Origin: Clostridia bacterium
GTDB taxonomy: Bacteria; Bacillota; Clostridia; Christensenellales; Pumilibacteraceae
DNA length: 49,699 nt
Direction: 5' to 3'
Assembly: GCA_017396125.1 (NCBI GenBank)
Contig: JAFQMX010000065.1
Span: forward strand, 1 to 49,699
Shown: positions 34,062-38,057 of the stretch, piece after piece
How positions within the stretch are numbered: position 1 is the first letter of the stretch
Layout: each line of letters begins with the position of its first letter
Translations under genes and position numbers: made by a program
Notes under the pieces: generated by a model
Told to the model about the DNA's origin: nothing
The model's input: the letters and a program-made list of their open reading frames with translations, nothing else
The model's database searches: none

Positions 34062-35786
34062 TTACGAATGCTTGAACTGATATTCGTACAATCCTTTGTA
34101 GATGCCGTTGTTTTGCATAAGCTCGTCGTGCGTTCCCTTTTCTTCTACGCCGTTTTTTGTTAGTACCACAATGGTGTCGGCGTTTTTGACGGTGGAGAGT
34201 CGGTGAGCAACGACGATGGTCGTGCGACCTTTGCTCAAGCTTTCAAGAGCTGACTGAATCTGCATTTCGGTAAAGTTGTCGAGAGCAGAGGTTGCTTCGT
34301 CAAGAATAAGAATAGGTGGGTTTTTGAGAAAGGCACGGGCTATAGAAATACGTTGCTTTTGTCCGCCCGAAAGCTTTACGCCTCGCTCACCCACTTCTGT
34401 ATTGTAGCCGTCGGGGAGAGAACGGATAAATTCGTCTATGTTTGCCTTTTTTGCTGCTTCGACAATTTCTTCGTCGCTGGCGTTAAGATTACCGTAAGCA
34501 ATATTCTCTTTTACCGTTCCGCTAAATAAGAATACGTCTTGCTGAACTATTCCGATATTTTTTCGCAAATCTTCGCGTTTTAGGTGAGAAATATCTATTC
34601 CGTCAATAGTGATTTTGCCTTCGTCCAGTTCATAAAATCGCGGAATAAGATGGCAAATTGTGGTTTTGCCGCCGCCCGAAGGTCCCACGAGCGCGGTAGT
34701 TTGTCCTTTTTTGAAGGTGAGCGAAAGGTTTTTTAGTACGCCCGTATCTTCGGTGTCGTGCTTGTAAGCAAACGAAACGTTGTCAAAGGTTACGTCGCCG
34801 TCGAGAGCATCCACCGTGACGCAGTTTTCCGGTTCGGTTTCGGGCGCGATAGCCATAACCTCGGTAAATCTCACGAATCCTGTCATGCCTGCCTGAATTT
34901 GCTCGAAGATGTTGACTAGCGTGCGGATAGGGGTGAGTAGCATGGAAATGTACAAAAGAAACGCTGCAAACTCTCCGCCGTCGATTTTTCCGTGATAAAA
35001 GAACAGTCCGCAGGTGGCGAGAGTTACGAAATACATCAAATCGTTAAAGAATCCCATTCCGCTGAAAAATACACCCATGGATTTGTAAGCGCCTGCGCGC
35101 GCTTTTTTGAAGTTTTCGTTGTTGGCTTTAAATTTTTGGAATTCTTTTTTGGAGGCGGTGTAGGCTTTTGAAACGCGTATGCCCGAGATTGCTGACTCTA
35201 CGGTTGCATTGATAACGCCGGTTTCCTCGCGCATTTTTCTAAAGGAATCGCGCATATTTTTTCGCGCTTTTATGGCGAATATCAGCATAAACGGCAGTAC
35301 GGCAAACACTATGAGAGTAAGCGGAAGGTTTATCGTTGCCATAAGTATAAAAGCGGTTATTATGGATACAGTGGAGATAAATAAATCCTCCGGACCGTGA
35401 TGGGCAAGCTCGGAAATTTCGAATAGGTCGTTTATAATTCGAGACATTATTGTGCCCGTTTTGGTTTCGTCAAAATACGGGAACGGAAGCTTTTGGACGT
35501 GGCGGAAAAATTCCTCGCGCATATCGCCCTGGATGCGCACGCCCATTATGTGTCCCCAATACTGAATAAAGTAGTTGAGGAAAATCTTGGCGATATAGAT
35601 AGCGAGCAGCACGCCCAGCCAGATTCCCATAAGCTTAAGGTCGCGCTGTGGCACGTACACGTTGATTATGTTTTTTGTGATGTAGGGATAGAGCATATTT
35701 ATTACCGCCACCAAAAAAGCGCAAATCATGTCCGTAACGAACAGCTTGCGGTGCGGGCGGTAGTATTTTACAAATTTTTTAAGCAT
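34062..35786 (-). CDS. ABC exporter, fused permease-ATPase half-transporter
   Basis: 574 residues. N-terminal six-helix exporter domain (residues 15-300) and C-terminal ATPase (about 330-574) with Walker A GPSGGGKTT, Q-loop IVQQDVFLF, signature LSGGQKQR, Walker B ILILDEATS and the switch His in VAHRLST. It is an MsbA/LmrA-like multidrug or lipid exporter that works as a homodimer, or as a heterodimer with a gene elsewhere. The ATG at 35786 follows GGAG; 27 more in-frame residues upstream have no ribosome site. It is divergent from ssrA. Confidence 0.94.
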   Translation of the reverse strand: MLKKFVKYYRPHRKLFVTDMICAFLVAVINMLYPYITKNIINVYVPQRDLKLMGIWLGVLLAIYIAKIFLNYFIQYWGHIMGVRIQGDMREEFFRHVQKLPFPYFDETKTGTIMSRIINDLFEISELAHHGPEDLFISTVSIITAFILMATINLPLTLIVFAVLPFMLIFAIKARKNMRDSFRKMREETGVINATVESAISGIRVSKAYTASKKEFQKFKANNENFKKARAGAYKSMGVFFSGMGFFNDLMYFVTLATCGLFFYHGKIDGGEFAAFLLYISMLLTPIRTLVNIFEQIQAGMTGFVRFTEVMAIAPETEPENCVTVDALDGDVTFDNVSFAYKHDTEDTGVLKNLSLTFKKGQTTALVGPSGGGKTTICHLIPRFYELDEGKITIDGIDISHLKREDLRKNIGIVQQDVFLFSGTVKENIAYGNLNASDEEIVEAAKKANIDEFIRSLPDGYNTEVGERGVKLSGGQKQRISIARAFLKNPPILILDEATSALDNFTEMQIQSALESLSKGRTTIVVAHRLSTVKNADTIVVLTKNGVEEKGTHDELMQNNGIYKGLYEYQFKHS

Positions 35787-35957: not shown

Positions 35958-36323
35958 GGGGGTGTACAGGTTTCGACGGTGCGTCCGACGGAATAAATAA
36001 AGCATATGGTAGTGCCGCTACCTTAAAAGGCAAAAAAAATAAACGCAAACACTCAAAAAACTGCAAGCCCAGCGCTTGCGTTCGCTGCTTAATTTAACCT
36101 AGCAGTCGTTGTGCGAGAGATTCTCTGCGCCTTTCGCTACAATGTCATTTTAGCAGGGGGACTCTGCAAGGCGACGGTAACGACCTTGTGGCGATCTAGT
36201 TACCATGCGCTGAGTAGGTTGGTTGTCTATCCACTCGGAGGCAAGACAAAAAGATAACTAAATATGTAGAAAATTATTTCATAAGCGTATCGGAAAGGAG
36301 TTCAATTCTCCTCACCTCCACCA
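35958..36323 (+). ncRNA. ssrA: transfer-messenger RNA
   Basis: About 366 bases. The 5' end GGGGGTG pairs with CACCTCC before the 3' ACCA (36320-36323); the tRNA-like 5' part has GGTTTCGACGG and the T arm GGAGTTCAATTCTCC. The resume codon is GCA at 36045 and the open frame ends with TAA at 36090-36092. It encodes the tag A-N-T-Q-K-T-A-S-P-A-L-A-F-A-A. tmRNA rescues stalled ribosomes with SmpB. CCA is encoded. The 3' end also serves as an integration site for the element that follows. Confidence 0.97.
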
Positions 36324-36327
36324 AAAA
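36311..36327 (+). repeat. attL-like direct repeat in the tmRNA 3' end
   Basis: CTCACCTCCACCAAAAA, identical to 37923-37939. It covers the last 13 bases of ssrA and 4 bases beyond. Confidence 0.75.
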
Positions 36328-36362
36328 CAACCTAAGTTGAATCATCAACTTAGGTTGTTTAT
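36326..36362 (+). terminator. rho-independent terminator of ssrA
   Basis: AACAACCTAAGTTGA and TCAACTTAGGTTGTT form a 15-bp stem with a short loop, ending in T-rich sequence. Confidence 0.85.
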
Positions 36363-36363
36363 T

Positions 36364-36518
36364 CAAGCCAAAAGGCTTGGTATGTAATCGCCGTAGGCGT
36401 ATGTAATCACAGTTTGCTGTGTGTGTAATTGCCGTAGACGTATCCGCTTCGGCTTGATTACATTCAATCTATTGATTCCATACTGCTTCGCAAATTACAT
36501 ACACAACTGTCGTTGTGA
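36364..36518. repeat. array of short hairpins separated by TATGTAAT words
   Basis: GTATGTAATC at 36380 and 36399, GTGTGTAATT at 36421, and reverse copies GATTACAT (about 36457) and ATTACATA (about 36494). Between them are tiny hairpins: CAAGCC-AAAA-GGCTTG, GCC-GTA-GGC, ACAG-TTTG-CTGT, CCG-CTT-CGG, TGC-TTC-GCA and ACAAC-TGTC-GTTGT. It directly precedes the four-helix-bundle gene. Confidence 0.65.
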
Positions 36519-36537
36519 TTTTTTATAAGGTAAAATT

Positions 36538-36894
36538 ATGAAAGAAAACTTACTAATGAAATATGCCGAACAGTTGGCAACGGAAATTGAATTACTTTGT
36601 CAATCGTTATCTAAAATTAAGGATTGTTCAAATACTGTTTTTCAAATTCGTAAATCTTCGTCTAGTGTTTTTGCGAACATCACGGAAGCGCAATATCCGC
36701 AAAGCTTGCCCGATATGCTTTCCAAATTAAAAATTGCGAGAAAAGAATGTTTTGAAACGGAAAGTTGGTTAAAACTGTTATTTAGTACAGGTAAAATATC
36801 TGAAGAAATATTTAAAGAAAAGCGTAATCTTTGCGGAAGAATCCGTAGAATATTAACTGCATCTTGTATAACGATTGAAAAGAAAATCAAGTAA
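36538..36894 (+). CDS. four-helix-bundle protein (S23 / 23S rRNA intervening-sequence family)
   Basis: 118 residues, almost entirely helical, with the family pattern ...YAEQLATEIELLCQSL..., then SSSSVFANITEA and ARKECFETESWLKLLF, then a final helix. These proteins were first seen encoded inside 23S rRNA intervening sequences and are common, often strain-variable, genes of unknown function in gut bacteria; a related fold (Avd) serves diversity-generating retroelements, but no reverse transcriptase is present here. AAGG precedes the ATG weakly. A strong bidirectional terminator follows. Confidence 0.88.
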   Translation: MKENLLMKYAEQLATEIELLCQSLSKIKDCSNTVFQIRKSSSSVFANITEAQYPQSLPDMLSKLKIARKECFETESWLKLLFSTGKISEEIFKEKRNLCGRIRRILTASCITIEKKIK

Positions 36895-36898
36895 AACT

Positions 36899-36938
36899 AA
36901 AAAATAACGAGCGTAGATTTTCTTCGCTCGTTATTTTT
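36899..36938. terminator. bidirectional terminator
   Basis: AAAATAACGAGCG (36901-36913) and CGCTCGTTATTTTT (36925-36938). It lies between the convergent four-helix-bundle and XRE genes and overlaps the end of the latter. Confidence 0.85.
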
Positions 36939-37131
36939 CTATCCCGAATAATAAATTTGGTTCTATCTCAAATTTTTCATATAAAACCAGGATACTATAG
37001 TATCCTGGTTTCTTTTTTCCTAACAGCCATTGGCTTACTGTAGTTTGGTTTATCCCCAAAATGTCGGCGAAAGCTTGCTGGGATAATCCCCTTTCTTGCA
37101 TAACTTGTTTAATTACATCAATATACCACAT
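36931..37131 (-). CDS. small XRE-family repressor of the ssrA insert
   Basis: 66 residues from the ATG chosen: a single helix-turn-helix (MQERGLSQQAFADILGINQTTVSQWLLGKKKPG, in parts) with short tail EIEPNLLFGIE. The ATG at 37131 is 6 bases after TATAAT on the minus strand (37143-37138) and has no ribosome site, suggesting a leaderless mRNA; an alternative ATG at 37149 would add 6 residues. Divergent from 37222, with a tandem 19-bp operator between. Confidence 0.82.
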   Translation of the reverse strand: MWYIDVIKQVMQERGLSQQAFADILGINQTTVSQWLLGKKKPGYYSILVLYEKFEIEPNLLFGIEK

Positions 37132-37152
37132 GTAAAAATTATAAGTCATTTT

Positions 37153-37193
37153 AGGTCAAAAGTCTTGATATAGGTCAAAAGACCTGATATAAT
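37153..37193. promoter_or_regulatory. tandem 19-bp operator over a sigma-A promoter
   Basis: AGGTCAAAAGTCTTGATAT (37153-37171) is followed without a gap by AGGTCAAAAGACCTGATAT (37172-37190). The second contains the palindrome AGGTC-AAAA-GACCT. The rightward promoter TTGATA (37165-37170), 17 bases, TATAAT (37188-37193) is embedded, so binding would block it. Confidence 0.75.
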
Positions 37194-37221
37194 ATGAGTA
37201 TAAATATTTAAGGAGGGGGTT

Positions 37222-37410
37222 ATGACTTGGATTTACAACAAAAAGCAACACACTTTGCATATAAAAGGCTATTGTGCAATGCAAGGTAACCCGAAAAATG
37301 ATTGCAATTGGGAGGAACTACAATCTGAAAATGCGGCTTTAGAAATAGATGGAGTTGCGGTACATAAGTGTAAAGTATGTCAAAAAAGATTAGAAAAGAA
37401 TAATAAATAA
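37222..37410 (+). CDS. small cysteine/histidine-containing protein, unknown
   Basis: 62 residues, not recognised. Four cysteines (two near residues 19-28, then KCKVC at about 50-54) and two histidines suggest a small metal-binding fold. It has no signal peptide. AAGGAGGGGG lies just upstream. It is the first gene under the tandem-operator promoter and is probably cotranscribed with the zinc-ribbon gene 39 bases downstream. Confidence 0.65.
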   Translation: MTWIYNKKQHTLHIKGYCAMQGNPKNDCNWEELQSENAALEIDGVAVHKCKVCQKRLEKNNK

Positions 37411-37449
37411 ACAAATATAAATAAAATAAATTGTACAAAGGAGTTAAAA

Positions 37450-37857
37450 ATGGCTATTATACAATGCCCTGAATGTGGGAAAGAAGTTTCAAGTATGGCA
37501 AAAAATTGTCCTAATTGTGGTTTTCCAATTAAAGTGGCAGCAACAAGCAATATCGTAACAATTCGAATGGCTATGATAAAAGGAACTGTTGTTTTTGGTG
37601 CAAAGCAAAAAGTCGATATTACTGTTGGGTCAAAAATTGTATGGCAAGGTCATTCTGGCGAAATTGCAGAATTAACCATTGATAAGCCTACAGAGATACA
37701 AGTAAAATATTACACAAATGCAGCATATTTTGGGGGGCGCTGTTCGGGAATGGTCGACCCGAAAAAATATAAAAAATATAGCGTAACACCACATCAAGGA
37801 GCACTTTTTAAGACAAACTTAACCTTTCAACCTGTTGATGTATTTGATTCAGATTAA
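37450..37857 (+). CDS. zinc-ribbon protein with beta-rich C-terminal domain
   Basis: 135 residues. N-terminal zinc ribbon CPECGKEVSSMAKNCPNCGFPI (in parts, residues 5-24), followed by a beta-rich domain (residues 33-128: IVTIRMAMIKGTVVFG, VDITVGSKIVWQGHSGEIAEL) that reads like a small carbohydrate-binding or jelly-roll-like fold. The family is common in Bacillota as zinc-ribbon domain-containing protein of unknown function. AAAGGAG precedes the ATG. Last gene of the ssrA insert. Confidence 0.75.
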   Translation: MAIIQCPECGKEVSSMAKNCPNCGFPIKVAATSNIVTIRMAMIKGTVVFGAKQKVDITVGSKIVWQGHSGEIAELTIDKPTEIQVKYYTNAAYFGGRCSGMVDPKKYKKYSVTPHQGALFKTNLTFQPVDVFDSD

Positions 37858-37922
37858 GCTTTTTTATTTTATTATTATAATTTCACGGATAATGAAACTA
37901 AAGCGGTTCAACTCACGTTACA

Positions 37923-37939
37923 CTCACCTCCACCAAAAA
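37923..37939 (+). repeat. attR-like direct repeat of the tmRNA 3' end
   Basis: CTCACCTCCACCAAAAA, an exact copy of 36311-36327. TTCAA occurs a little further upstream as in the T arm, but the rest of the tRNA-like arm is not reproduced. Confidence 0.75.
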
Positions 37940-38057
37940 TCAACAAAAAAAGATCTTGGATTGAAAAGCAGTTCAGGGCTTTTTTTTGCATAAGAAACAC
38001 TAAAAAATGGAAAATGCAGTAGAAAAAAATGAACTTTTTTATATAGATACCGATTTT
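37934..38057. repeat. ~120-bp intergenic repeat, copy A
   Basis: Aligns with 41833-41953. Shared words include AAAAATyAACAAAAA, TTTTTTTGCA, AAAATGCArTAG, AAAAAAATGAA and ATAyAGATAyCG. Its terminator stem is decayed compared with copy B. Confidence 0.65.

Follow-up and report, generated by a model that had tools for sequence, protein, structure and literature searches.

What is the 1.6-kb segment that lies directly behind an intact tmRNA gene (ssrA), ends in a second copy of the ssrA 3′ end and encodes no integrase? It lies in a window of 49,699 nt, by which we mean the whole stretch of DNA that was analysed (contig JAFQMX010000065.1, assembly GCA_017396125.1, Clostridia bacterium; Christensenellales; Pumilibacteraceae). 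The host genome (G000) is a MAG of 1.11 Mb in 66 contigs that is 67.6% complete. A search of the genus returned only this genome, and the genus is represented by one genome in the comparison set. For comparison, we read up to 20 kb at each of 87 distinct tmRNA loci obtained from family, order and IVP searches, the window included. With the neighbouring ABC transporter as query against genome contigs, relatives were matched, and in none of these did ssrA lie beside the transporter.

The segment behind ssrA

The last 13 bases of ssrA (two of the T stem, seven of the acceptor, the discriminator A and CCA) and the four A that follow form a 17-bp sequence, CTCACCTCCACCAAAAA, which occurs a second time at a spacing of 1,612 bp. 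The exact copy of the tmRNA end had already been reported in the sequence-only reading, and we found it to be both exact and unique to this locus: the 1.11-Mb MAG contains exactly two copies, both of them here, and none of the reversed control. When up to three mismatches were allowed, there was one further site, at position 35701 (0.12 expected), and no shuffle had three sites. The features of the locus are as follows (coordinates, strand, description).

35958..36323, plus strand: intact ssrA (tmRNA) gene (ARAGORN, tag ANTQKTASPALAFAA; Rfam RF00023, 148 bits)
36311..36327, plus strand: left copy of the 17-bp repeat, attL-like, ssrA end plus AAAA (exact match to CTCACCTCCACCAAAAA)
36325..36360, plus strand: perfect 16-bp hairpin directly 3′ of ssrA, terminator-like, without a T-run (fold z −9.0)
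36362..36530, plus strand: palindromic leader of the IVP module with repeated GTATGTAATC units (fold z −3.6 for 36380-36520)
36538..36894, plus strand: IVP gene, four-helix-bundle protein of 118 aa, 23S_rRNA_IVP family (PF05635, 2.4e-19; TIGR02436, 1.4e-19; PDB 2RLD, 7e-11)
36900..36938, no strand: inverted repeat between the convergent IVP and XRE genes, a possible two-way terminator (18-nt arms, 94% complementary)
36931..37149, minus strand: XRE-type regulator of 72 aa (HTH_3, 2.8e-9)
37152..37193, no strand: twin AGGTCAAAAGNCYTGATA repeats overlapping a promoter-like TTGATA-17-TATAAT, putative XRE operator (promoter scan 11 of 12)
37222..37410, plus strand: small Cys-containing protein of 62 aa (ORF call; no family match)
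37450..37857, plus strand: 135-aa protein with an N-terminal zinc ribbon (PF13248, 1.9e-6; phrog_6586, function unknown, 9e-9)
37923..37939, plus strand: right copy of the 17-bp repeat, attR-like (exact match to CTCACCTCCACCAAAAA)
37944..37988, plus strand: hairpin with a T-run 3′ of the right copy, probable displaced ssrA terminator (fold dG −16.1, z −4.3)

The T-run hairpin, which the sequence-only reading had not mentioned, starts five bases past the right repeat, and terminator-like hairpins thus stand behind both copies, as would be expected if an insertion had displaced the original ssrA terminator. The GC content falls from 0.42-0.45 outside (~43%) to about 0.30-0.34 inside the segment (~31%). 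The right end of the segment folds no better than its shuffles (z −0.61), and its similarity to other right arms does not exceed that of shuffles.

All four ORFs look intact and are the small accessory genes that had been described, and none of the ORFs between the repeats is an integrase, again as claimed. The last two genes diverge from the XRE gene and have the promoter-like site ahead of them. The twin AGGTCAAAAGNCYTGATA repeats at this site (37152-37189) are, judging from their sequence, the probable XRE operator, and a similar motif is found upstream of XRE relatives. These relatives (58-82% identical) are stand-alone genes at unrelated loci in five other genomes and are therefore uninformative on cassette movement. 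The XRE coding sequence also contains a perfect 28-base palindrome, AAACCAGGATACTATAGTATCCTGGTTT, at 36984-37011, which shows no conservation across the five relatives that we read. When the zinc-ribbon protein was searched against viral and phage sequences, matches were confined to its N-terminal ribbon. A role of these genes in defence was considered and set aside, since PADLOC returned only generic HTH and weak zinc-ribbon matches.

Related ssrA loci and their recombinases

We found an additional ssrA 3′ end downstream at 19 of the 87 tmRNA loci, the window among them, and the reversed core at one; at one of the 19 (L166), the second end is actually that of a tRNA-Ala gene sharing this end. 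Within the family, second ssrA ends occur in G035 (+226), G010 (+365), G024 (+175) and G034 (+204 and +3567), and G010 and G034 have a right arm of ~60 bp in common. Across the family, the genes that follow ssrA vary, and a second copy is missing from most loci. Between the ssrA-end copies of relatives in the family and order, we detected no tyrosine integrase.

Movement is seen in two sister species of one genus, G132 and G151, in which the flanks behind ssrA are orthologous (92% over 3.3 kb). The order is ssrA-A-B-flank in G132 and ssrA-B-A-C-B′-flank in G151. The two versions of unit A are 96% identical. The B unit of G132 matches the first B of G151 without a difference over 149 nt (100%), and the flank-side B′ is 90% identical. 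Since the flank is shared but the order of the units is not, segments bounded at the CCA of an ssrA copy must have moved, been gained or been lost. Integrase-less ssrA cassettes thus do move in this pair.

At ~150 bp, the units have no room for a recombinase gene. Each contains a terminator-like hairpin, the T arm in inverted orientation, more hairpins and a direct copy of the ssrA end. Tandem units of this size with a CAGTCCRGTGGACTG-like hairpin are found at L160 and L161, and also at L145, L147, L153, L167, L180, L128 and L122. At L153 (14940-15140), a unit of the same design lies behind a tRNA-Leu gene, and both of its arms match tRNA-Leu, not ssrA. Rfam contained no known family for the ~150-bp units and IVP leaders that we checked. 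The inverted T-arm/hairpin right end of these order-wide units is absent from the window element, whose right arm does not resemble the hairpin arms found in relatives, and for this reason we do not place it in the same family.

A profile search for PF00589 and PF07508 recombinases gave no match in the MAG, which is 67.6% complete. PF00589 proteins, Xer included, are present in 69 of 74 family genomes and missing from G000, probably because of the incompleteness of the MAG. The near-universal tyrosine recombinase of the family (~360 aa) looks, by our reading, like a housekeeping protein of the Xer type. Other recombinases do adjoin ssrA. In G004, a member of the same family (L193, 434-2092), and in G037 of another family (L159), a large serine recombinase has its C-terminus encoded antisense by the ssrA 3′ end, an arrangement also described for DsiB (dsiB) of Dehalococcoides (PMC3146451), and a tyrosine integrase gene lies next to ssrA in G104. 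These three cases indicate that ssrA is a used target in these bacteria, and a recombinase acting in trans on the window element is plausible. Among the loci with duplicated ssrA ends, one carries a recombinase, a large serine recombinase in the 9.85-kb ssrA element of G264. The final ~55 bases on the right side of this element are similar to those that close a 179-bp unit in G347 of the same genus. The statement that elements at ssrA usually carry their integrase was too strong, as 15 of 31 Dehalococcoides ssrA islands have no integration module (PMC3146451).

The elements with integrases in G004, G037, G104 and G264 (9.85 kb) are what one would look for if the segment were a deletion product, in which a larger integrase-bearing ssrA island lost its integrase and most of its cargo, so that 1.6 kb with both att copies stayed behind as a fixed remnant. 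That the window's right arm does not resemble the active-looking arms fits this too. We nevertheless consider such an origin unlikely, though it deserves serious weight: all four ORFs look intact, the ~150-bp units move though they cannot encode an integrase, and the same compact plan recurs, free of integrases, at other RNA genes, as described below.

IVP genes behind tRNA and tmRNA genes

The first gene of the segment had been recognized correctly as encoding a four-helix-bundle protein, but its recurrence as a module in the trailers of tRNA and tmRNA genes had been missed. We collected PF05635 genes at two levels: 57 distinct ones in the family and in a few relatives of the order, and 73 class-wide. 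Of these 130, 38 lie 150-410 bp behind a complete tRNA or tmRNA gene on the same strand, compared with four of 419 control ORFs at other loci; the IVP loci were picked by protein score and not by neighbourhood, and related genomes among them are not fully independent. The linkage is seen in both sets, in 18 of the 57 and 20 of the 73, and none of the 73 class-wide genes has a tRNA or tmRNA gene on the opposite strand at this position. The linked RNA genes differ (Ala, Val, Met, Leu, Glu, Ser, Thr, Pro, Arg, Tyr, Cys, Gln, His and tmRNA). The gap between RNA gene and IVP gene holds a hairpin and a palindromic leader; examples of IVP loci, from L207-L256 and L257-L326, are L218, L222, L271, L317 and L325. 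In several loci, for instance L314 and L325, the tRNA terminator arm partly recurs within the leader. An IVP gene is also found at ssrA in G095 and G015; in G010 and G075, ssrA is followed by an IVP-type leader with the gene absent.

In an alignment of 132 IVP sequences, the polar residues Q31, S38, N42, E45, E68 and T107 (numbered by the aligned segment) are nearly invariant, which suggests, from sequence conservation, a conserved binding or catalytic site. Our literature search, in which subscription papers were not covered, returned no paper that ties IVP genes to tRNA trailers; this recurrent home behind tRNA and tmRNA genes is unreported in the literature searched and is the most novel part of the analysis.

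At three more loci, the plan is that of the window: RNA gene, hairpin, leader, IVP gene, cargo, copy of the RNA-gene end, hairpin. The RNA gene is tmRNA at L271 (end copy at +1476), tRNA-Ser at L317 (+1030) and tRNA-Leu at L325 (+1791). We read the cargo of L271 as having a GIY-YIG-like motif and that of L325 as an AraC-type regulator. The L325 cassette ends in a sequence related to that of the tRNA-Leu unit at L153 (alignment score 116, shuffles ≤79). A tandem arrangement is found at L203 (574-4733; G034:C57), where segments end in copies of the tRNA-Asn end and degenerate tRNA-Asn copies are also present; one segment carries an IVP gene and another an ORF that we read as glycosidase-like.

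A distal copy of the end was found at three of 35 tRNA-linked IVP loci when up to 20 kb was read (control, 0). At this frequency, the module and the duplication that flanks it need not belong together, and the IVP module may have arrived on its own. This bears on a further explanation, by which two unrelated events produced the locus: the ssrA trailer took up an IVP module, as tRNA trailers do, the second ssrA end was left by an older and different ssrA element, and the XRE and zinc-ribbon genes are leftovers between the two. The lack of a distal copy at most tRNA-linked IVP loci, the leaders without a gene behind ssrA in G010 and G075 and the XRE gene standing alone in five other genomes would all fit. 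We judge it improbable, however, because IVP gene, cargo and distal end copy occur together at three other loci, within 1.0-1.8 kb, which suggests one unit. A chance repeat or an assembly artefact, for which one could cite the fragmentation of the MAG into 66 contigs and the contigs of several relatives that stop at ssrA, is very hard to credit for 17 exact bases where none are expected, with a terminator-like hairpin right behind the copy and the same design in independent assemblies.

A probable integrase-less cassette and its known counterparts

The explanation that we favour, with moderate confidence, is that 36328-37939 is an integrase-less cassette joined to the ssrA 3′ end, with the recombinase supplied from elsewhere. 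Its parts would be the IVP module (hairpin, leader and gene), the XRE-controlled pair of Cys-containing and zinc-ribbon genes, the duplicate ssrA end and the displaced terminator. A recombinase encoded at another locus would have inserted it site-specifically at the ssrA 3′ end and left ssrA intact, with the two repeats as attL and attR. We infer that the window copy was inserted as a unit, can still be moved and depends on a recombinase in trans. The proposal of an element inserted at ssrA is partly supported, a bounded insertion without an integrase being the best reading in view of the second copies in relatives and the permuted sister pair.

Several observations speak for this cassette: the exact, MAG-unique repeat, both hairpins, the drop in GC content, the second ends at 19 of 87 loci compared with one for the reversed core, and the permuted units. 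The three IVP cassettes of the same plan, the linkage of 38/130 versus 4/419 and the use of ssrA by recombinases in relatives add to these. Against it stand the missing PF00589 and PF07508 proteins in a partial MAG, a right arm without fold or similarity, the many tRNA-linked IVP loci that have no distal copy and the lack of an exact empty site among the relatives, the host genus being represented by this genome alone.

Seen in this way, the window element would be an example of a class of very small mobile cassettes that has so far escaped notice. Insertions without an integrase at tRNA and tmRNA ends are easily overlooked because searches for islands usually begin from the integrase, and if the class is general, it would be a hidden route of gene gain in gut Clostridia. 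For the IVP family, whose function is unknown and which has been met mainly in intervening sequences of 23S rRNA, the home in tRNA trailers is a testable clue, and it makes the old proposal of mobile intervening sequences (IVSs) testable. More tentatively, the IVP gene and its palindromic leader could be a mobile module that in Clostridia normally resides in tRNA and tmRNA 3′ trailers. There, with or without cargo, such modules could form integrase-less cassettes bounded by copies of the RNA-gene end and build up into integron-like arrays, and the IVSs of 23S rRNA could be of the same kind, housed in a different stable RNA.

Among known systems, the 23S rRNA IVSs with an IVP/S23 ORF (PMC4990558) share PF05635, palindromic flanks and the association with a stable RNA. 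In the window, by contrast, the element lies behind tmRNA and not inside 23S rRNA, has extra genes and duplicates the RNA 3′ end; it has the IVP ORF and inverted repeats of an IVS, but the palindrome is upstream of the ORF and does not enclose it. Integron cassettes resemble the units of the relatives in being small, tandem, permuted and devoid of an integrase of their own, and the relatives' units end in hairpin-rich sequence. In the window element, a tRNA/tmRNA 3′ end serves as boundary, neither integron integrase nor attI was identified and the end is not hairpin-rich. As in an integrative element at ssrA, direct 3′-end repeats form both bounds and ssrA is intact; an integrase was found neither in the element nor, for PF00589 and PF07508, in the 67.6%-complete MAG. 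The Dehalococcoides ssrA islands (PMC3146451) are likewise flanked by ssrA and by direct repeats of the ssrA 3′ end, are often tandem, carry accessory cargo and in many cases are free of an integrase. Most of them are far larger and have rdhA cargo, whereas the unit in the window is 1.6 kb long, begins with an IVP module and resides in a member of the Clostridia. CIMEs (the term as used in PMC3146451) similarly have att-like copies at both ends and no genes for integration or transfer. CIME status requires att sites that still function, and the element is best described as a CIME-like ssrA cassette that combines a tRNA/tmRNA-trailer IVP module with an XRE-controlled gene pair.
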